Assembly (NCBI RefSeq): GCF_900166625.1
Contig: NZ_LT800499.1
Location: 3,181,676 to 3,245,675 of the forward strand
Length of the DNA stretch: 64,000 bases
DNA from: Halobacillus massiliensis
GTDB lineage: Bacteria; Bacillota; Bacilli; Bacillales; Halobacillaceae
Reading direction: 5' to 3'
Below are positions 6,804 through 53,926 of this stretch, one piece after another. A program made the position numbers and the translations under genes. The notes under the pieces are model-generated. The model did not search any database and was not told where the DNA came from. It saw only the letters and a program-made list of their open reading frames with translations. Positions within the stretch are counted from its first letter, which is position 1. Each line of letters starts with the position of its first letter.

Positions 6804-7463
6804 ATGAATAATAAAGCAGTAGTCGTCTTCAGCGGGGGGCAAGACAGTACAACATGCCTGTTTTGGGCGTTAAATAAATATGAAGAAGTTGAAGCTGTAA
6901 CCTTTGATTATAATCAGCGTCATAAGGATGAAATAGAAGTGGCGAAAAAAATTGCCCAGGATTTAAATGTAACGCATCACGTACTAGATATGTCGTTACT
7001 CAGCCAGTTGGCACCTAATGCACTGACCCGAGATGATATTGAGGTGAAAGATGGTGAAAATGGAGAGCTTCCTTCCACTTTCGTGCCAGGACGTAATCTT
7101 CTTTTCTTATCCTTTGCAGCGATTCTTGCCAAGCAAATCGGTGCCGCCCATGTAATTACAGGAGTCTGCCAAACGGACTTTAGCGGTTACCCCGATTGCC
7201 GAGATGTATTTATTAAGTCTTTAAATGTAACGCTTAATTTATCTATGGATGATGAGTTTGTCGTTCACACACCACTCATGTGGCTTGATAAGGAAGAAAC
7301 GTGGGAGATGGCTGATCAGCTAAATGCTTTTGACTATATCCGTGAGCATACTTTGACATGCTACAACGGAATTATCGGAGATGGCTGCGGTGAGTGTCCT
7401 GCCTGTAAACTGCGTCGAAACGGTTTGGAGAATTATCTCCAGAGAAGAGAGGAGGTTCAGTAA
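6804..7463 (+). CDS. queC: 7-cyano-7-deazaguanine (preQ0) synthase
   Basis: A 219-aa cytosolic ATP-dependent enzyme that turns 7-carboxy-7-deazaguanine and ammonia into preQ0 for tRNA queuosine. The N-terminal PP-loop SGGQDSTT is at residues 9-16. The C-terminal zinc-binding cysteines are present (CYNG, then [10 protein letters not shown]). The start is the ATG at 6804 behind GAAAGGGG; a longer frame starting at 6738 would begin inside the riboswitch terminator and is rejected. It is the first gene of queCDE, regulated by the preQ1-I riboswitch. The next ATG follows the stop directly. Confidence 0.97.
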
Positions 7464-7931
7464 ATGTTCGGTTTCACGATTGTCGAAAACCTCCAAAAGA
7501 TGGACAAAGATATTCAAAAACATGAACTAAGATATCACAGCAAGCGGGTTCTAGTCAGTAAAGAGTTTACATTTGATGCCGCCCACCATCTACATTGCTA
7601 TGAAGGAAAATGCAAAAACTTACACGGTCACACTTATCGTGTCGTGTTTGGCATCAGTGGGTATACCGATGATATTGGACTTGTCATCGATTTTGGCGAT
7701 ATTAAAAAGGTTTGGAAGGAACAAATCGAGATTCATCTGGATCACAGATACCTTAACGATACTCTCCCTAACATGAACACTACGGCAGAGAACATGGTTG
7801 TCTGGGTCTATGAAAAAATGGAGCAGGCATTAGCAGAAGAGCGCGAGGATTACCGTGTGGAGTTTGTAAAACTTTATGAAACTCCAACAAGCTATGCTGA
7901 AGCAAGACGGGAGTGGATGATCGATGGCTAA
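7464..7931 (+). CDS. queD: 6-carboxytetrahydropterin synthase
   Basis: A 155-aa enzyme that converts 7,8-dihydroneopterin triphosphate to 6-carboxy-5,6,7,8-tetrahydropterin. Zinc-binding histidines are visible in DAAHHL and LHGHTY, with the catalytic Cys just before (KCKNLHGH). A roughly 25-residue N-terminal extension precedes the core 'SKEFTFDAAH', as in other Bacillus QueD proteins. The AGGAGG site lies in the end of queC. The stop overlaps the queE start by 8 nt, suggesting translational coupling. Confidence 0.96.
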   Translation: MFGFTIVENLQKMDKDIQKHELRYHSKRVLVSKEFTFDAAHHLHCYEGKCKNLHGHTYRVVFGISGYTDDIGLVIDFGDIKKVWKEQIEIHLDHRYLNDTLPNMNTTAENMVVWVYEKMEQALAEEREDYRVEFVKLYETPTSYAEARREWMIDG

Positions 7932-8655
7932 CAAATTTCCGGTCTTAGAAATTTTCGGCCCCACTATTCAAGGAGAAGGAATGGTCGTCGGCCGGAAAAC
8001 AATGTTTGTACGAACAGCCGGCTGTGACTACAGCTGTGCATGGTGTGATTCAGCTTTTACATGGGATGGCAGTGCGAAAGAAGAAGTACGGCGAATGACA
8101 GCGGAAGAAATCGTACATGAGCTTCGAGAAACCGGTGGGGACAAATTTGACCACGTGACCGTATCCGGAGGGAATCCAGCACTTTTAAAACACCTCAATG
8201 AATTGATTGAGCTTCTTCACGAATTAAGAGTCGAAGTTGCCCTGGAAACACAAGGCAGCCGCTGGCAGGAATGGTTCTTGGAAATTGACGACCTGACGAT
8301 ATCTCCCAAGCCTCCAAGTTCAAAAATGAAAACTAACTGGGAAACACTTGATGGTATCCTTCAAAACCTGAAAGTTAATGGCCGCCTTTCCCATACCAGC
8401 TTAAAGGTCGTAATTTTTAATAAGAAAGACCTTGAGTACGCGGAGAAGGTTCACAAAAGATATGAAGAAGTGCCGTTTTTTCTTCAGGTGGGCAATGAGG
8501 ATTTGGAAGAGGAGCAGCCTGAACGACTAGCGTCCGACTTGCTCTCTAAATATGAATGGCTGATCGATAAAGTCATGGAATCTTCCGCCCTCAATCACGT
8601 AAGAGTACTGCCACAGGTTCATGCCCTGTTATGGGGAAATAAGCGGGGAGTATAA
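7924..8655 (+). CDS. queE: 7-carboxy-7-deazaguanine synthase (radical SAM)
   Basis: A 243-aa radical-SAM enzyme that makes 7-carboxy-7-deazaguanine from 6-carboxytetrahydropterin. The [4Fe-4S] cluster motif is CDYSCAWC (CX3CX2C). It is followed by the B. subtilis-type 'DSAFTWDG' and a glycine-rich SAM-binding strand (VTVSGGNPALL). It overlaps queD by 8 nt and ends the operon. queF, which often follows, is missing here; the next gene is convergent. Confidence 0.96.
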   Translation: MANKFPVLEIFGPTIQGEGMVVGRKTMFVRTAGCDYSCAWCDSAFTWDGSAKEEVRRMTAEEIVHELRETGGDKFDHVTVSGGNPALLKHLNELIELLHELRVEVALETQGSRWQEWFLEIDDLTISPKPPSSKMKTNWETLDGILQNLKVNGRLSHTSLKVVIFNKKDLEYAEKVHKRYEEVPFFLQVGNEDLEEEQPERLASDLLSKYEWLIDKVMESSALNHVRVLPQVHALLWGNKRGV

Positions 8656-9908: not shown

Positions 9909-9942
9909 ACTAATTTTTCATGCACCGTCAGGGGGTACAAAG

Positions 9943-10767
9943 ATGAAGCTTTATCTTTCCGTAGATATGGAAGGAATAACAGGACTGCCGGATCATACTT
10001 TCGTTGATTCTTCAAAGCACAATTATGAGCGTGCCAGAAAGATAATGACAGAAGAAGCGAATAACGTGATTTCATCGGCATTAGAACAGAATATTAAGGA
10101 AGTTACAGTAAACGACAGTCATTCTAAAATGAATAATTTATTGATTGAACACATTCACCCGGAGGCTCAGCTGATTACAGGAGATGTGAAACCTTTTTCT
10201 ATGGTACAGGGATTGAATGATACATATGATGGAGCGATTTTCCTCGGCTACCATTCAAGAGCTGATCAGCCGGGAGTTATGTCTCACTCCATGACATTTG
10301 GAGTCCGCAATTTTTACATAAACGATATGGCAGTAGGAGAACTTGGACTAAATGCTTATGTTGCCGGCTATTATGATGTTCCTTTAATTATGGTCTCGGG
10401 CGATGATCGTGTAGCAGAGGAAGCGAAAGGCTTAATACCTAATATCGTCACAGCTCCTGTAAAAGAGTCCATTTCAAGATCAGCTGTTAAAACATTAACT
10501 CCAAAAAAAGCCGGAGAGCTGTTACATAAGAAGACGGTGGAAGCGATAGAAAACCTCCAGAATATCCAACCGCTGATCCCGCCAAAATCTCCATTATTGA
10601 GAATAGAATTTGCAAATTATGGACAAGCCGAATGGGCGAATCTTATGCCAGGAACTCAAATCGAGCCCAATACAACTACGGTCTCCTATCAGGCAAAAGA
10701 CATATTGGAAGCATACCAGGCGATGATCGTTATGACTGAGCTCGCGATGCGTACGACATTTAGTTAG
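9943..10767 (+). CDS. dppA: D-aminopeptidase DppA
   Basis: A 274-aa zinc D-aminopeptidase (M55) that cuts D-Ala-D-Ala and D-Ala-Gly-Gly from peptidoglycan turnover. It has the same length as the B. subtilis enzyme. All zinc ligands are conserved at the same positions: D8, E10, H60, H104 and E133; His115, in GVMSHSM, is also kept. The ATG at 9943 follows GGGGGT. It is the first gene of a nine-gene cluster in the exact B. subtilis order dppABCDE-ykfABCD, probably CodY-repressed. Confidence 0.97.
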   Translation: MKLYLSVDMEGITGLPDHTFVDSSKHNYERARKIMTEEANNVISSALEQNIKEVTVNDSHSKMNNLLIEHIHPEAQLITGDVKPFSMVQGLNDTYDGAIFLGYHSRADQPGVMSHSMTFGVRNFYINDMAVGELGLNAYVAGYYDVPLIMVSGDDRVAEEAKGLIPNIVTAPVKESISRSAVKTLTPKKAGELLHKKTVEAIENLQNIQPLIPPKSPLLRIEFANYGQAEWANLMPGTQIEPNTTTVSYQAKDILEAYQAMIVMTELAMRTTFS

Positions 10768-46400: not shown

Positions 46401-46481
46401 GGAGAACTATCCTCGTCTTAACCCCCTCGCTCTTTTTACCTATTTATTCCAAAATTAGTTTTTATGGAAAGGAGATTTTTT

Positions 46482-47984
46482 ATGAAAAAATTAACTTCGG
46501 TTTTTTGGATCTCTCTTGCGATTACCCTGTTTTCCGTAGTATGGGGAGCGGTGGCTCCAAAAAACTTAGAAACGATTACAGGAAATATTCAAGCTTATAT
46601 TTCTGTACACTTTGGCTGGTATTATTTATTAATTGTTTCATTCTTCGTTGTGTTTTGTTTATACATGATTGTAAGTCCTTATGGAAAAATGAAATTAGGA
46701 AAGCCGGATGACACACCAGATTACAGCTATCCCACATGGTTTGCTATGCTGTTCAGCGCGGGGATGGGAATCGGACTCGTCTTTTTTGGAGCAGCTGCAC
46801 CTCTCCAACAATACATGACCAATCCACCGATCGGGGAACCCGGCTCAGAGCAAGCACTGGCTGATGCCATGCCGATTACTTTTTTCCACTATGGAATTCA
46901 CGCCTGGGGAATTTATGCCATTGTGGCTCTTGTATTAGCCTATTTTAAATTCCGCCGCGGGGCTCCTGGGTTAGTGAGTGCCACACTTGAGCCAATATTC
47001 GGCGATAAAATGAAAGGCCCGTGGGGGAAGCTTGTCGACGTTATAGCCGTCTTCGCTACGATAGTAGGTGTTGCCACTACGCTTGGTTTCGGAGCCGCGC
47101 AAATTAATGGAGGAGTTACGTACTTAACAGGAATTGGACAAAGCTTCGGTATTCAGCTCTTAATCATTATTATAGTTACTATATTATTTATGATCTCCGC
47201 TTATACAGGTTTGAGTAAAGGGATTAAATATTTAAGTAATGCTAATATGGGATTAGCCACACTATTATTTCTAATAATGATAATAATAGGGCCAACTATG
47301 TACATTTTAAATATGCTGGTAGATTCCCTTGGCACTTATATTCAAAATCTTCCGCGTGAAAGTCTGCGTGTGGCCCCAAATAATGAAGAACAGCGGCAGT
47401 GGATCAATGACTGGACAGTCTTTTTCTGGGCATGGTGGATCGCCTGGTCTCCGTTTGTAGGGATATTTATTGCCCGTGTGTCTAAAGGAAGGTCGATTCG
47501 TGAATTCTTATCGGGTGTTCTGCTTGTCCCTTCTATCGTAAGCTTCCTGTGGTTCTCAACATTTGGAAGTTCCGCGATTCAGAAAGAGAATGAAGGAGCT
47601 GATCTAGCCAGCCTGGTCCCAGAGCAGATGCTGTTTGGTTTGTTTGACCAGTTCCCTTTCAGCTTACTATTATCTATCATTGCGATGATGCTGATTGCTA
47701 CGTTCTTTATTACATCTGCTGACTCCGCTACGTTTGTATTAGGAATGCAGACAACCAATGGATCCTTAAACCCTCCAAAAGTTGTTAAATTCGCCTGGGG
47801 GATTGCTCAATCGGCAACTGCTGCGGTCCTTCTTTATACCGGAGGCTTACAGGCCTTACAAAATGCGCTGATTTCAGCAGCTTTTCCGTTTTCCTTCATT
47901 ATGCTTTTAATGGTCTATTCGCTGTTTAAAGCATTACGAGCGGATAAACTAGAACTAGACCGGATGCAAAATAAAACGAAATAA
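46482..47984 (+). CDS. BCCT-family glycine betaine/choline transporter (OpuD-like)
   Basis: A 500-aa sodium-coupled carrier with 12 TMs. It has the glycine stretch 'AGMGIGLVFFGAA' in TM3 and the Trp-rich substrate box 'WTVFFWAWWIAWSPFVGIFIARVSKG'. These features fit glycine betaine or related compatible-solute uptake. The ATG at 46482 follows GGAAAGGAG. It is divergent from uxaB and opens the osmo-adaptation block. The exact substrate is inferred from family. Confidence 0.92.
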   Translation: MKKLTSVFWISLAITLFSVVWGAVAPKNLETITGNIQAYISVHFGWYYLLIVSFFVVFCLYMIVSPYGKMKLGKPDDTPDYSYPTWFAMLFSAGMGIGLVFFGAAAPLQQYMTNPPIGEPGSEQALADAMPITFFHYGIHAWGIYAIVALVLAYFKFRRGAPGLVSATLEPIFGDKMKGPWGKLVDVIAVFATIVGVATTLGFGAAQINGGVTYLTGIGQSFGIQLLIIIIVTILFMISAYTGLSKGIKYLSNANMGLATLLFLIMIIIGPTMYILNMLVDSLGTYIQNLPRESLRVAPNNEEQRQWINDWTVFFWAWWIAWSPFVGIFIARVSKGRSIREFLSGVLLVPSIVSFLWFSTFGSSAIQKENEGADLASLVPEQMLFGLFDQFPFSLLLSIIAMMLIATFFITSADSATFVLGMQTTNGSLNPPKVVKFAWGIAQSATAAVLLYTGGLQALQNALISAAFPFSFIMLLMVYSLFKALRADKLELDRMQNKTK

Positions 47985-47989
47985 CCAAA

Positions 47990-48021
47990 AAAAGAACGAG
48001 CGATCTGCTCGTTCTTTTTTA
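47990..48021 (+). terminator. Terminator of the BCCT gene
   Basis: Perfect stem AAAAAAGAACGAGC with GCTCGTTCTTTTTT, 5-nt loop. Confidence 0.93.
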
Positions 48022-48191: not shown

Positions 48192-48941
48192 TTATTTTTC
48201 GCTATCATCCCGCTTCATTTGATCATTGACCATTTCGTTCAATAAATGATTAATACCGACCGTCCGCTCGACATCAAGCACGAAGGCAATTCCTTTTCCT
48301 GGCTTATTTAATTCTGCACCTTCTTCAATTGCCTTTAATACATTATCTGTTCTTTCTTTGCGAATGAGCGTCAAAATCACTTCTTTTTCAGGCTCGATCA
48401 GGATATTAAAGAGCTTAGCTTTTTCATGAATCCCTGTGCCGCGCCCAGTAATAATAGTCCCTCCTTCTGCACCAGCGCTTTTCGAAGAATCAACGACTTT
48501 GTCAGAGTCCCCTTTATTAACTATAGTTACAATCAGATCATAAGCTATCGGCTGGCTCTTTACGTCGTTACTCATATCCTCACCGCCATTTTCTTGAATT
48601 TCTTCCAGCCCGAGCCCAAGCATATGTACAATACCGCTGATCCTCTTCGTATTGATCACGAAGCCAATTCCGTGCTGGGGCTTATTCAACTTCACTGAAT
48701 CAATAATAGCATCCATAACTTTTTCATAGATGGAATCTGAGACAAGTGTTAAGATGATTTCTCTTTCCCTCGTAATTGGAATACCAAGAAACCTCTCCTT
48801 TTCATTAAGGCGGAACCCTTTACCGAAGAAAGTTGTACCGCCCTGGGCACCAGCTAAAGTGGAGGCATGAACTACCTTTTTGGCTTTTTCTTTTTTAACG
48901 ATCGTAACTATTAACTTTTGCCCGAGCTTCTTCTTCGGCAT
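48192..48941 (-). CDS. Tandem PII-like signalling protein
   Basis: A 249-aa protein of two GlnB/PII-like domains (about residues 9-110 and 135-238), alike to each other: 'LIVTIVKKEKAKKVV' and 'LIVTIVNKGDSDKVV', 'GAQGGTTFFGKG' and 'GAEGGTIITGRG', 'LNKPQHGIGFVIN' and 'LNKPGKGIAFVLD'. The uridylylated T-loop Tyr of classical PII is absent; the ligand-binding Lys/Gly segment is kept. It starts inside the upstream DUF1538 gene (47-nt overlap) behind AAAGGAG, so it is translationally coupled. It probably senses a nucleotide and controls the DUF1538 pair. Confidence 0.85.
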   Translation of the reverse strand: MPKKKLGQKLIVTIVKKEKAKKVVHASTLAGAQGGTTFFGKGFRLNEKERFLGIPITREREIILTLVSDSIYEKVMDAIIDSVKLNKPQHGIGFVINTKRISGIVHMLGLGLEEIQENGGEDMSNDVKSQPIAYDLIVTIVNKGDSDKVVDSSKSAGAEGGTIITGRGTGIHEKAKLFNILIEPEKEVILTLIRKERTDNVLKAIEEGAELNKPGKGIAFVLDVERTVGINHLLNEMVNDQMKRDDSEK

Positions 48942-49665
48942 GTTGGGCGTTCTCCTTTCTTCTGTAAATTACTCCCAATGTGAGAACAGACAAAATGGGA
49001 GCCAGAGCCACAAGGGAGACCATTCCAAATCCATCCCGGAGCGGGTCCCTTCCTTCCGTTACAGAGGCGATTCCGACAAATAACGCCAAAATAAATGTAG
49101 CCGTCATCGGCCCGGTAGCAACACCGCCCGAATCAAAAGCAATGGATGTAAACGTTTTCGATGAATATTTTACTATAATTAACGCAAAAATGTAGCCGGG
49201 TATAAGAAAATACCATAAAGGAATACCAAAAATAATCCGAACCATGGAAAGGGAAATTGAAAGTCCTACCCCAATTGATAAGGTATACAGCAGCACTTTA
49301 TGAGGAATATACCCACCTGAAACCTTTTCTACCTGGTGAATTAATACACTGACAGCCGGTTCAGCATAAATAGCCACAAATCCGAGAACAAAGCCAATGG
49401 GTATCAGTACCCACAAGTGATTCATTGTTCCAAGCTTCTTCCCCATCAGCTCTCCTATCGGCATAAATCCAATGTGTACTCCTTGTAAGAAAAAGGATAG
49501 TCCTAAAAAAGTTAAAATAAAGCCAACAACGATATCCTGAAGTTTTCGAATCGGCAGTTTTAAAAAGAAAAGTTGAAATATCAAAAATAGAGCTAAGAGC
49601 GGGAGCAGTGCAAAGGTCACTTCCAGCATAGTATGCCCAAATCCTTCAAAGATCTTAATATTCAT
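48895..49665 (-). CDS. DUF1538 membrane protein (second of pair)
   Basis: A 256-aa membrane protein, about seven TMs. DUF1538 marks: 'HIGFMPIGELMG', 'VAIYAEPAVSVLIHQVE' and 'SFDSGG'-type motif 'IAFDSGGVATGPMTATF'. It overlaps the first DUF1538 gene by 4 nt (ATGA) and the PII gene by 47 nt. Paired DUF1538 proteins have been reported as a two-component cation/proton antiporter (UmpAB) in Halomonas; that function is assigned here by family only. Confidence 0.85.
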   Translation of the reverse strand: MNIKIFEGFGHTMLEVTFALLPLLALFLIFQLFFLKLPIRKLQDIVVGFILTFLGLSFFLQGVHIGFMPIGELMGKKLGTMNHLWVLIPIGFVLGFVAIYAEPAVSVLIHQVEKVSGGYIPHKVLLYTLSIGVGLSISLSMVRIIFGIPLWYFLIPGYIFALIIVKYSSKTFTSIAFDSGGVATGPMTATFILALFVGIASVTEGRDPLRDGFGMVSLVALAPILSVLTLGVIYRRKENAQHAEEEARAKVNSYDR

Positions 49666-50354
49666 CCATAGATCACTCCCAGAATCATTACCGCCAGGAT
49701 TGGACCAATGGAAGCAAGTGCCACCAGCCCAAAGCTATCTTTTGAAGAAGTTCTTCCTCTTATAACCGTGGCTACCCCAACACCTAAGGCCAAAATAAAA
49801 GGAACAGTTAAGGGCCCAGTCGTTACCCCGCCTGAATCAAACGATATCGGAACAAAGTGCTCGGGAGTAAAAGCAGCTAATAAGAAGACAAGAGTATATC
49901 CCCCAGCTAACAAATACACGATGTTAATATTTAATATGATACGAAAAAGCGCTAAAGCAACAAATAGTCCTACCCCAACTGCTACTGCCATTATTAATAC
50001 ATTTTGAGCAATGCTGCCATTGGAAACAATGTCTATTTGCGAAGAGAGAACCCGCACATCTGGTTCTGCGATCGTTACAACCACTCCTAATAAAAATCCG
50101 AAAAAGATGATGAGCCCGACCTTTTTCGTTTTCGAAATAGCTGAGCCAATTAACTCTCCCACCGGAAGCAGACCTACATTAACTCCTAACAAAAATAGGA
50201 CCAGTCCCAGTCCTACAAAAAGGACACCCACTAGAAATTGTAGAAAATTTTCTAATGGAAGCCATATTAAGGTGAACTGTAAAATAGTGATCACAATAGT
50301 TATCGGTAATATGGAGAAAATGACTTCTAATATTGTTTCTTTTATATTGTCCAT
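49662..50354 (-). CDS. DUF1538 membrane protein (first of pair)
   Basis: A 230-aa membrane protein homologous to its downstream partner: 'NVGLLPVGELIG', 'VVTIAEPDVRVLSSQID' and 'ISFDSGGVTTGPLTVPF'. The AEP and DSGGV-TGP motifs lie in membrane-flanking loops and are the best candidates for ion sites. The ATG at 50354 has GGAGGAGG 7 nt upstream. First gene of the module DUF1538-DUF1538-PII. Confidence 0.85.
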   Translation of the reverse strand: MDNIKETILEVIFSILPITIVITILQFTLIWLPLENFLQFLVGVLFVGLGLVLFLLGVNVGLLPVGELIGSAISKTKKVGLIIFFGFLLGVVVTIAEPDVRVLSSQIDIVSNGSIAQNVLIMAVAVGVGLFVALALFRIILNINIVYLLAGGYTLVFLLAAFTPEHFVPISFDSGGVTTGPLTVPFILALGVGVATVIRGRTSSKDSFGLVALASIGPILAVMILGVIYG

Positions 50355-50617: not shown

Positions 50618-50652
50618 AAAAAAAGAAGCTCTTGTGATCAAGAGCTTCTTTT
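50618..50652 (-). terminator. Terminator overlapping the stop of the second BCCT gene
   Basis: 14-bp perfect stem (AAAAGAAGCTCTTG and complement) then T7 on the minus strand. The TGA stop is in the left arm. Confidence 0.92.
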
Positions 50653-52191
50653 CAATTCATCCTTTCTTATATTATGTTTCCACGCCTGATCTTTATCAAT
50701 CATCCGTTTCGCTGCGTAAATAAGGATAAACTGAATAATAATAATCGGCAGCCCCATGAGTCCTGAAATAACTTCTAATGGAGCAAGTCCTCCAATCCGC
50801 ATTAAAACAAGAGCAAGCGCTGTAATAATGACAGCAATAATCACTCGAAGTGATCTTGGGGGTTCAAATTTACTCATATCCCTTGTACTTGTGTAGGCAG
50901 CTACCGTATACGTTGTAGAATCAAGGGTCGTTGTCAGGAAGATAAGCGCTACAATCATAAATACAATAATAGCCACAGATCCAAAAGGCAGTGTAGAAAG
51001 AATTTCCGGAATAGCTGCCATTCTTTCCTGGTCCTGAACGATATCCAGTACAGCAAGATCACCCGTGAGGTATCGGTGAACGCCAAGTCCTCCTAGTACT
51101 CCTGTCGCTACCCACGACAAAACAGTAGGTGCAAGGAAGTACGTAAGAATCATTTCTTTAATTGTTCTCCCCTTGGAAATTTTGGCTGCAAACACACTAT
51201 GAAGCATTGCCCATGTGGCACTATAAGCAAACCAAAAGACCGTATTGCTTTGAATATGGGAACTTTCCCCATGGACAGACTGAGTATCCAATGAAAGGTT
51301 TATATAATTAGTTAATAAGAAAGAAACACTGTCTGAGAAATAATTTAATATAAATACGCCTGGTCCTCCGATAAGTACAAAGATAACGAAAAAACCAGCT
51401 AAGAACATATTCCATGTACTTAAACGTTTAATCCCTTTCTCAATTCCTAAGTAAGCACTTAAGGAGAATAAAAATACCCAAACTACTGTAACGATAATGG
51501 TCATCGTAAAAGTAACATCAAGCCCTGTCAGATGTGATAAGTTATGAGTAATAATCGGCGCTCCAAGGCCAAGGGTTACAGCTGCACCTGATAAAATACT
51601 AACAAGAAATAAAACATCAAATATTTTACCGCCAATGCCGTCTGTAAACTTATCACCAAAAATATCACGGCAGGCTTCAGAAATCCTCAGCATCGGCCGC
51701 TTCTTCACATGCAATATATAAGCCATAGCAGGGGCTATCATTACAAATATCGCAAACACCTGAAAGCCCCACATAAACATGCTGTAGGCATTTCCCCACA
51801 AGAGAGCTTCTGCTGAACCCGGCTCTACTCCAGCGGGAGGATCATTTGCTACAGATGTCCACTGAAGCATCGCCGTTCGCATAATCGTTGATCCTACACC
51901 CATTGCAATAAGGATCGATGCATATGAGAACAGACTCATTCGCGGTTTTTCTTTTGGATCTCCAAGCACGACTTTCCCATACTTAGAAAACGATAAATAC
52001 AAACCAGCGACAACTAGGATAATCCCATACCAGAGATACCCCCATGTAAATACCTCTACAATATAATCAAATATAGAATTCAAGACTTCCAGCGACTCTG
52101 ATTCAAATAAAGCAAAAGGTATACTAATACCAATAATAATAATTAATGAGGGAATAAAAATATTATAATCAATTAATTTTTTCCGTTTCAT
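50638..52191 (-). CDS. Atypical BCCT-family transporter
   Basis: A 517-aa BCCT carrier with 12 TMs. The TM3 glycine motif reads 'AMGVGSTIMRTAMLQW' instead of GMGIG, and the Trp-rich box is replaced by 'WFAYSATWAMLHSVFAAKISKG'. So it is not a standard betaine carrier; a CaiT-like exchanger or another quaternary amine is possible. The ATG at 52191 follows GAGGAGG; the TTG one codon earlier is less well spaced. Confidence 0.85.
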   Translation of the reverse strand: MKRKKLIDYNIFIPSLIIIIGISIPFALFESESLEVLNSIFDYIVEVFTWGYLWYGIILVVAGLYLSFSKYGKVVLGDPKEKPRMSLFSYASILIAMGVGSTIMRTAMLQWTSVANDPPAGVEPGSAEALLWGNAYSMFMWGFQVFAIFVMIAPAMAYILHVKKRPMLRISEACRDIFGDKFTDGIGGKIFDVLFLVSILSGAAVTLGLGAPIITHNLSHLTGLDVTFTMTIIVTVVWVFLFSLSAYLGIEKGIKRLSTWNMFLAGFFVIFVLIGGPGVFILNYFSDSVSFLLTNYINLSLDTQSVHGESSHIQSNTVFWFAYSATWAMLHSVFAAKISKGRTIKEMILTYFLAPTVLSWVATGVLGGLGVHRYLTGDLAVLDIVQDQERMAAIPEILSTLPFGSVAIIVFMIVALIFLTTTLDSTTYTVAAYTSTRDMSKFEPPRSLRVIIAVIITALALVLMRIGGLAPLEVISGLMGLPIIIIQFILIYAAKRMIDKDQAWKHNIRKDELKRSS

Positions 52192-52394
52192 CAAATCCTC
52201 CTCTATCTCTCTTTTCTTTATTAAAAGGTGTCTTTACCTCTACCCTCCTAAAAGAGACGATAAAAGCGAATTATTAAATTTCCTTTAAAAATTTATTATG
52301 AATTCGTTTTCTTAATATAATAAAAACAAATATTCCAGTTCCATTGTCTTTTATAGTAATTAAAAACAAATTCACCGATAATTATTCCAAAATA

Positions 52395-52431: not shown

Positions 52432-53013
52432 CTATGACATCCATTTCGGAGGGGTGTTTTTGTCCCAGTATACCTCACCAATCGAATGATGTTCTTCAAA
52501 TTGATCGTCACTAAGATGATAATGAAAATTAAACCAGTAGCCCTCACCCGGTCGATTTACCCGTCCTACATCAAAGCGTGCCAACTCGTCTTTCGTACGG
52601 CCGTCAAGAATGGTGAAGATCTTTTCGCCATAGCCGGGAGTGAGCTCTTCTGTAATCTCAAAATACGGAACTTCCTCTTCTCCACGCTCTTTGATGATCT
52701 CTTCAATTACTTCCTCTATTTTTGGAAGAATTTCTTTTTCTACATCATTTTCTACTTTATTAGCAATTTTAGGGCCCATCTTTGTTATCATTCGGGCTTT
52801 AGCCTGTTCCGTTATACTATGTAAATAATCTTCTTCCGCGGTTTCAAAATCAGGCTCAGATGGTACAACGTCCGGTAGAGGAACGTTATTCTCTTTTTCA
52901 GTAATCGGCTTTTTCTCAGCTGCATCCATTTCCACATATGTTGGAGGAATATACAGCCCTAAGGTCATAATAGCCACTAAGACAACAAATATTTTTCTCA
53001 TCCAAAGATTCAT
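52432..53013 (-). CDS. ypjP: YpjP-like secreted protein
   Basis: A 193-aa protein with an N-terminal signal or anchor (RKIFVVLVAIMTLGLYIPPT), a Glu/Pro-rich stretch, a helical region (about 70-115) and a conserved C-terminal part 'GRVNRPGEGYWFNFHYH' and 'IGEVYWDKNTPPKW'. It fits the YpjP family of Bacillaceae, function unknown. Single gene with its own terminator. Confidence 0.8.
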   Translation of the reverse strand: MNLWMRKIFVVLVAIMTLGLYIPPTYVEMDAAEKKPITEKENNVPLPDVVPSEPDFETAEEDYLHSITEQAKARMITKMGPKIANKVENDVEKEILPKIEEVIEEIIKERGEEEVPYFEITEELTPGYGEKIFTILDGRTKDELARFDVGRVNRPGEGYWFNFHYHLSDDQFEEHHSIGEVYWDKNTPPKWMS

Positions 53014-53146: not shown

Positions 53147-53926
53147 TTAACTCTTATCTTTATGCTCTTTTCCCTGTTCTTTGACCATCCGTTTTAATTC
53201 ATCAAGGTCATTCATAATCTTCTTCATATCTCTAGTTTCTTCTTCTGCATGCTCGGAAATCTGCTGCGCATTATTTACAATCTCCCCGACAATTAAGTTT
53301 AATATAATAAAAGCCGAGATTATAATGAAGGACACGAAATAAAGCCACGACCAGGCACTTTCACTAAAAATCGGCCGAAACACGCCGCTTGCCCAACTCT
53401 CCAGTGTAAAAACCTGAAACAGAGTTAGTGTACTCAAGCCCAGATTTCCAAAGTATTCAGGCGCAAGCTCTCCATAGAAGTTGGTGCCTATTACCGCATA
53501 AACATAAAAAATAATTCCCATCAAAACGGTAACAGAACCTATAGCAGGTATGGCCATAAATAAAGCCGTAGTTAACCGCTTTAAGGAAGGGACAATTGAA
53601 ATCGTACGGAGCACCCGCAAAACACGAAGGATCCGTAAAACTCCTACTAAATGGGTGTTATATAAAATCAAGCTTCCAAATACAATTGTGAAATCAAAGA
53701 GGTTCCAGCCATCTTTAAAGAAAGCCGATCGATACACGATTAATTTCAGTATGATCTCTACCGTAAAAATGGACAGGATCAGGATGTCCAAAAAAATAAA
53801 AGTTGAGTGATAGTTTTCATATATTGCCGGATCCGTTGAAACCCCGATAATTATAGCGTTAAGGATAATAATTGCTAATATAAAACGTGAAAATAATGCA
53901 TGTTCCACAAAGCTTCGTAAATTAAT
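53147..53926 (-). CDS. Voltage-gated sodium channel, NaChBac family
   Basis: A 259-aa six-TM channel subunit. S4 has regularly spaced arginines (RILRVLRVLRTISIVPSLKRL) and the pore filter is 'TLESWAS', identical to NaChBac, so sodium selectivity is expected. The C-terminus is a coiled-coil-like acidic helix. Start: the frame has no ATG. A GTG at 53908 lies 24 nt from the only good ribosome site; an ATT at 53926 lies 7 nt after GGGGAG and restores the family-typical 'LRSFVEH' lead-in. I chose the ATT. In alkaliphiles and halophiles such channels serve motility, chemotaxis and pH homeostasis. Confidence 0.9.
   Translation of the reverse strand: MNLRSFVEHALFSRFILAIIILNAIIIGVSTDPAIYENYHSTFIFLDILILSIFTVEIILKLIVYRSAFFKDGWNLFDFTIVFGSLILYNTHLVGVLRILRVLRVLRTISIVPSLKRLTTALFMAIPAIGSVTVLMGIIFYVYAVIGTNFYGELAPEYFGNLGLSTLTLFQVFTLESWASGVFRPIFSESAWSWLYFVSFIIISAFIILNLIVGEIVNNAQQISEHAEEETRDMKKIMNDLDELKRMVKEQGKEHKDKS

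Follow-up and report, generated by a model that had tools for sequence, protein, structure and literature searches.

PII proteins are textbook nitrogen sensors; what, then, is one doing in an operon with a pair of DUF1538 membrane proteins? The question is raised by a 64,000-nucleotide stretch of the Halobacillus massiliensis genome (assembly GCF_900166625.1, contig NZ_LT800499.1, positions 3,181,676 to 3,245,675), hereafter the window. On its minus strand lie a umpA-like gene for a DUF1538 protein of 230 amino acids (aa) (49662-50354; PF07556, E 7.8e-77), a umpB-like gene for a second one of 256 aa (48895-49665; PF07556, E 4.7e-79) and a gene for a tandem PII protein of 249 aa with two PII domains per chain (48192-48941; PF00543, E 8.7e-14). 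The umpA-like start was set at 50354 (50402 in the list of open reading frames, ORFs) on account of a Shine-Dalgarno-like GGAGG upstream, judged by eye. The ORF coordinates confirmed that the three genes overlap as a preliminary description of this DNA had stated, by 4 nucleotides (nt) between the umpA stop and the umpB start (49662-49665) and by 47 nt between the umpB end and the PII start (48895-48941). Both membrane proteins pass the DUF1538 gathering score of Pfam (265 and 257.8 bits for the UmpA-like and UmpB-like protein, versus 22.6), and the PII passes that of PF00543 in two separate stretches (52.1 bits versus a cut-off of 25), bearing out the duplication reported earlier.

We propose that the operon encodes a cation/proton antiporter composed of two DUF1538 halves and, with it, a PII-type regulator of its own. 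Inserted in opposite directions, the UmpA-like and UmpB-like proteins would together make one inverted-repeat transporter. The PII would sit on the cytosolic face, read a small-molecule signal in the cleft between its subunits and open or lock the transporter via its short T-loop, as GlnK does on AmtB and SbtB on SbtA. We consider it quite probable that the PII attaches to the DUF1538 pair from the cytosolic side and gates transport according to a small-molecule signal. The proposal is based on the conservation of the operon, on the finding that in Bacillota the two partners occur almost only together, on the existence of fused and unfused forms of each, on a ligand-site motif that is remodelled yet conserved in the C-type and single PIIs, and on the opposite charge bias of the two DUF1538 halves. 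Antiport by the window proteins, direct binding of the PII, its ligand and inhibition upon binding are predicted parts of the model.

To what extent is the gene order conserved? We compared 109 DUF1538 loci, comprising 80 named loci (the best 80 of at least 587 confirmed candidates in one genome-collection scan), 24 from an order-level genome sample (the window's own included) and 5 from plasmids; L002 and L027-L033 were dropped as repeats of the same places, and at least one place is still counted twice (L008/L038). A PII gene directly follows the pair in 103 of the 109 loci, and 3 of the remaining 6 end at a contig end. The three-gene order, on whose conservation the preliminary description had staked its proposal, is thus kept. 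Within the named set, 75 of the 80 loci have at least one PII gene directly 3' of the pair on the same strand; the contig ends after DUF1538 in L049, L067 and L079, and L044 and L055 are without a PII. With start codons picked by rule, the gap between pair and PII has a median of -4 nt over the 103 loci, 62 of them overlapping and 99 lying within 60 nt. Because the three-gene order is so strongly conserved, a functional DUF1538-PII partnership is likely, and as far as genome data can speak the PII partnership is firm.

Co-occurrence points in the same direction. Among 398 Bacillota genomes, the window's own included, 137 carry both DUF1538 and the PII subfamily, 2 DUF1538 only, 2 the PII only and 257 neither; DUF1538 is thus found in 139 genomes and strong matches to A2, a profile built from DUF1538-linked PIIs, also in 139, with 137 in common. 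The line between strong and weak PII matches was put by eye at a gap in the E-values (7.7e-20 versus 2.2e-10), and 23 genomes with a weak PII match, none with DUF1538, were entered under 'neither'. As for the four discordant genomes, the fused DUF1538 gene of G466 runs off the contig end (L131), the DUF1538 match of G221 is weaker (best E 9.4e-23), the PII of G214 is a fragment, and G527 has its PII beside a CitMHS-type carrier. The G214 fragment (L167:4453-4899) is of the DUF1538-linked type but truncated; neither DUF1538 nor an antiporter was recognised in its vicinity, and it is probably a relic. In the order-level sample of 150 genomes, the A2 profile matched 23 of the 24 genomes with DUF1538 over the Pfam cut-off (25 at E 0.001) and none of the 126 others; in the exception, G010, the DUF1538 pair is followed by an unrelated gene on the opposite strand. 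Fisher p-values for these associations take no account of relatedness.

The hosts, judged by record titles, include Bacillota, Balneolota, Desulfovibrionaceae, Caldisericota, Aminicenantes and Methanobacteriota, several being metagenome bins. The DUF1538-PII order also occurs on alphaproteobacterial plasmids. A plasmid search gave 9 records, 3 of them from Pseudomonadota, all three Alphaproteobacteria, and in each of the 5 records inspected a P-II gene lies directly 3' of DUF1538. On a Chelativorans plasmid (L117:4513-4785), the first DUF1538 gene is annotated as only 90 aa and its UmpA half may be truncated. Complete A-B-PII units are present twice in G025, G268 and G302, and in the latter two genomes the DUF1538-DUF1538-PII units stand head to tail (L129:2665-6231 and L130:2970-6679).

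The next question is what the DUF1538 pair transports. In Halomonas zhaodongensis, UmpAB is encoded by two adjacent DUF1538 genes with overlapping stop and start, umpB being the last of four ORFs listed for the cloned fragment (PMC5484666). Each protein has seven predicted helices, the two are described as a heterodimer with an antiport optimum at pH 9, and vesicles of E. coli expressing UmpAB alone showed Na+(Li+,K+)/H+ antiport; the words 'topology', 'inverted' and 'PII' do not occur in the main text of the paper (PMC5484666). The window pair likewise consists of adjacent homologous genes with overlapping stop and start, the two-component trait of the UmpAB type. It differs in that its proteins do not reach the NCBIfam equivalog cut-offs for UmpA (NF041627, 133.9 of 490 bits) and UmpB (NF041628, 126.6 of 500 bits). 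The preliminary description had taken DUF1538 pairs to be cation/proton antiporters; this goes back to one paper (PMC5484666), and with scores so far under the cut-offs, antiport by the window pair is predicted from family membership.

The distribution of loop charges bears on how the two halves are inserted. Over the 109 pairs, positive charge lies mainly in the N-terminus, loop 2-3 and loop 6-7 of the UmpA halves and mainly in loop 1-2, loop 3-4 and the C-tail of the UmpB halves. The summed charge bias is above zero in 108 of 109 UmpA halves (zero in one) and below zero in all 109 UmpB halves, for split and fused forms alike, with loop limits taken from the helices of one AlphaFold2 (AF2) model and with related sequences that are not independent of each other. 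Orientation was assigned by the positive-inside rule, and because the loop charges are opposite, the halves are predicted to be inserted in opposite directions, UmpA with N-terminus in and C-terminus out, UmpB with N-terminus out and C-terminus in. The linker between the halves of the fused proteins is about 20 residues long and contains no membrane helix, as would suit an odd number of crossings in each half. Together, the loop charges and the natural fusions suggest that the two halves may form a single inverted-repeat transporter. In the confident model of one naturally fused A-B protein (L104; mean predicted local distance difference test score (pLDDT) 89.7, predicted template modelling score 0.87), helices in each half are interrupted at (A/S)EP and FD(S/A)GG motifs. 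Cation/proton antiporter (CPA) exchangers have inverted repeats with two unwound helices (PMC9408914), a resemblance that we regard as an analogy of architecture, homology not being claimed. Fold searches with the L104 model gave no confident match (Foldseek against PDB, best E 0.02; VIA-align 2, best Z 4.8, root-mean-square deviation 5.7, 135 residues), and no DUF1538 relative was found among PDB sequences, the only match being TOM6 at E 0.21.

PIIs are also found beside other antiporters. A third PII of G042 matches the A2 profile with 95 bits (E 8.2e-27) and starts 49 nt after a K+/H+ antiporter gene (both genes within L120:3412-5305), whose product carries PF00999 and TrkA_C and scores 619.5 bits against a cut-off of 355 on NCBIfam NF003716; the place of this PII in the PII tree is unsettled. 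A small tyrosine recombinase gene lies 16 nt upstream of the same antiporter gene (L120:2832-3395). In G527, which is without DUF1538, and in G507 and G478, a PII matching the same profile adjoins a CitMHS/ArsB/MamN-like carrier of 442-445 aa (gene pairs at L126:5658-7592, L127:5494-7358 and L128:4328-6205), and these PIIs fall inside the DUF1538-linked tree group (89/88, not a starred branch). A second PII-like family, with a motif like RGATI..STGMGR (alignment A5), forms its own clade (100/99) and adjoins PF00999-type antiporters in 17 of the 21 loci with weak or second-line PII matches; the other four are two NifI-like pairs, one GlnK-like protein beside an Amt-like gene and one PII fragment without an antiporter. 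When this family was searched with its own profile, an antiporter neighbour was present in all 30 best-scoring loci, 15 of them new and 15 shared with the weak-match set (second-family loci: L140-L151, L154, L155, L158-L160 and L177-L206). Antiporter genes in these loci were identified from their similarity to ten query proteins, part of which came from those loci themselves, and Pfam confirmed 8 of the 8 tested. As a small control for the neighbour test, canonical-type PIIs among the 21 loci stood next to genes that were, by eye, amt-like in one locus and nif-like in two.

These neighbours help to weigh the best-surviving alternative, in which the DUF1538 pairs here move another solute, such as bicarbonate or an organic ion, whose uptake the PII gates in the manner of SbtB and SbtA. 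The functional precedent comes from a single Halomonas pair (PMC5484666), from which the low equivalog scores set the window proteins apart; many of the carrier organisms are gut anaerobes by their record titles, and the CitMHS-type partners of related PIIs may carry anions. Yet a PII of the same profile adjoins a K+/H+ antiporter, the second PII-like family adjoins PF00999-type antiporters, and one study ranks DUF1538 among its 20 best Pfam predictors of growth pH (PMC13255231), so we regard transport of another solute as rather improbable.

We then come back to the PII itself, as the likely reader of a signal. Domain N (residues 9-106; 48624-48917, minus strand) is the more diverged half by tree and motif table, and domain C (residues 134-232; 48246-48542) has kept the motif GAEGGT..GRGTGIHE..IEPEKE..PGKGIAFV in the alignment. 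The T-loop region of domain C (residues 166-186; 48384-48446) is shortened: across the family, the stretch from the Thr of GGT to the Lys of PEK nearly always has 22-23 residues, with extremes of 19 and 24, versus 28 in three GlnK-type proteins. Absence of the classical uridylylation Tyr, noted in the preliminary description, follows from the shorter T-loop as judged by eye. The AF2 model of the tandem PII has a mean pLDDT of 78 and a weak linker at residues 119-128, and in Foldseek it matches GlnK structures one domain per match, the top match of all being a GlnK structure (E 9.3e-7).

Gln39, Lys58 and the B-loop TGXXGDGKI are determinants of 2-oxoglutarate and ATP binding in canonical PIIs (PMC4316997). 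In domain C of the window protein, His172 aligns with Gln39 and Lys186 with Lys58, and the canonical B-loop of GlnB/GlnK is replaced by LNKPGKGIAF; the N half has Arg at the Lys58 position, by eye. How often a His stands at the Gln39 position depends on the group: it does so in every one of the 11 separate C genes and in 79% of the 19 singles, but in 45% of the 11 separate N genes and, within tandems, in 40% of the 73 C halves and 15% of the 73 N halves. At the Lys58 position the share of rows with Lys is 82-100% depending on the group, in an alignment that crosses a gap at this point and is hence uncertain. In the C-type and single domains every row has the first Gly and the Thr of GGT, and 95-100% of rows have the Lys of PEK; the late Gly is likewise kept in 95-100% of C-half and single-PII rows. 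Among the 73 N halves, the second Gly of GGT is kept in 38% and the Arg of GRGTG in 21%. As cleft residues are conserved while Gln39 and the B-loop are altered, the ligand pocket is probably kept with a changed chemistry, and 2-oxoglutarate sensing of the canonical style is unlikely.

The two partners occur in several architectures. DUF1538 is encoded by two genes in 56 of the 109 loci and by one fused gene in 53, and the 103 loci with PII have it as a tandem (73), as two separate genes (11) or as a single domain (19). The fusions of PII and DUF1538 vary independently of each other, since a split DUF1538 pair is accompanied by two PII genes in L009 and L010 and by one PII in L004 and L017, and a fused pair by two PII genes in L059, L075 and L081. 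The alignments comprised 14 rows (A1), 25 rows (A2), 40 of the 53 DUF1538 fusions (A3), 38 of the 73 tandem PIIs (A4) and 12 of 17 (A5). Two PII trees were made, one with 94 of 190 domains and the other with 68 rows, each from few columns and with many forks open. In the domain tree, C halves and separate second genes form one group (SH-aLRT, the Shimodaira-Hasegawa-like approximate likelihood ratio test, 89), which includes five single PIIs (three Enterococcus, L004 and L056); the remaining singles, including those of archaea, Desulfovibrionaceae and Alphaproteobacteria, lie outside it, and several N halves sit on long branches. The simplest reading of these relationships is that a single PII was duplicated, one copy keeping the ancestral motif and the other drifting, and the two copies were probably fused more than once. 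A doubled PII could form two stacked trimers from three chains, or heterotrimers where there are two genes.

Could the PII-fold protein instead be a structural or assembly subunit of the DUF1538 complex that has lost ligand sensing? The much eroded motif of the N halves would suit such a role, as would the presence of two PII domains with two DUF1538 domains in 84 of the 103 loci. On the other hand, several cleft positions are retained in nearly all rows of the C halves and single PIIs, three loci have no PII, and UmpAB is active alone in E. coli (PMC5484666); we consider a purely structural role improbable, more so than transport of another solute. The activity of UmpAB without a PII also means that basic transport does not require the co-encoded PII, which suits a regulator; together with the few loci without PII, this activity makes an inhibitor easier to envisage than an activator.

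Whole-genome search of the host returned no P-II match beyond the two halves of the tandem gene and no canonical GlnB/GlnK. That the PII is a general nitrogen or energy sensor, encoded here by chance and acting on other targets too, is highly unlikely: the tandem gene is the only P-II gene of this genome and 5 of the 11 other host genomes searched also gave no canonical PII, but in Bacillota the subfamily and DUF1538 go together almost without exception, other hosts have canonical PIIs alongside DUF1538, and both Gln39 and the TGXXGDGKI loop are absent. Genes of this PII type are linked to DUF1538, and not to amtB, gln or nif genes as those of canonical GlnB/GlnK are.

Several points weigh against a gating PII on a DUF1538 antiporter. 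L003, L044 and L055 have no PII although no contig end explains its absence, and sharing an operon is no proof of physical contact. The window DUF1538 proteins score far under the UmpA and UmpB equivalog cut-offs, and the His at the Gln39 place is not general, being found in a minority of both C and N halves. Finally, the transporters so far known to be under PII control are said to be capable of working as trimers (PMC10710835), but a heterodimer is reported for UmpAB and dimers for CPA exchangers (PMC9408914).

Comparison with known systems places the proposed regulator among PII proteins with a transporter client. As with GlnK and AmtB, a PII-fold protein is encoded beside a transporter in a conserved gene pair, but the client here is a DUF1538 pair and the PII is often a tandem or two genes; the window-type PII further differs from GlnK in a T-loop about 5 residues shorter and in the lack of Gln39 and of the canonical B-loop. 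Like SbtB with SbtA, it would be a dedicated PII-like partner for one secondary transporter. The transporter family is different, however, and the R-loop of SbtB is a C-terminal Cys-X4-Cys (PMC10117731), whereas the window PII has no Cys at all and hence no R-loop cysteines. The c-di-AMP-binding PII-like protein PstA/DarA shares the PII fold and a shortened T-loop; its motif TKLXXXGGFLXXGNTT (PMC4316997) is absent from the window PII by eye, and the part of its description available to us mentions no transporter gene link.

The surroundings of the operon are not part of the system. The preliminary description had placed the module between BCCT osmolyte carriers and a sodium channel, a setting that proved not to be conserved: BCCT carriers lie at 46464-47984 (plus strand) and 50638-52194 (minus strand), and the Ion_trans gene, for a single-domain voltage-gated-type cation channel (53147-53908, minus; Pfam E 6e-44), is parted from the module by a BCCT gene and YpjP (52432-53013, minus). 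Among 97 DUF1538 loci of median length 12.6 kb, a BCCT homologue occurs in 1 and YpjP and the channel in none, and these genes were therefore rejected as components. A terminator-like hairpin 3' of the PII gene (47988-48020, minus) was indicated by a consensus scan only. An Rfam scan for riboswitches between 46000 and 54000 gave no match at the gathering score, and a promoter scan found 4 candidates versus 6.1 expected in shuffles. Small tyrosine recombinase genes were seen near modules at L123:7634-8233, L135 (about 7442-7945), L038 (about 9931-10488), L120:2832-3395 and L010:658-1296; homologues occur in 3 of the 97 loci (L010 by eye), which may be accidental or point to mobility.

PII control of transporters is already known, with ammonium, nitrate, urea and bicarbonate systems as clients (2023 review, PMC10710835). 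Neither PII nor UmpAB occurs in the main text of a review from 2022 on prokaryotic Na+/H+ exchangers (PMC9408914), and we found no description of dedicated PII control of cation/proton antiporters in the open-access papers searched; a dedicated PII on such antiporters would be what is new here. The recurrence of the DUF1538-PII pairing in distant bacteria and archaea suggests an overlooked way to switch ion exchange on and off. A bolder and tentative reading, which we hold to be possible though doubtful, is that the PII family forms a general, unrecognised control layer of prokaryotic cation/proton antiporters, with at least two PII lineages serving DUF1538 pairs, PF00999 exchangers including a K+/H+ antiporter, and CitMHS/ArsB-type carriers. 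The change of Gln39 to His in much of the DUF1538 lineage might then let the switch read pH or metal in addition to nucleotide, and doubling of the PII would perhaps solve the problem of a three-fold regulator on a transporter that is no trimer. The natural fused, split, single and absent forms are ready-made constructs for studying the system. If the proposal is true, it would test whether PII control needs a trimeric partner, and a dedicated PII would put pH and salt homeostasis under the influence of a metabolite signal.

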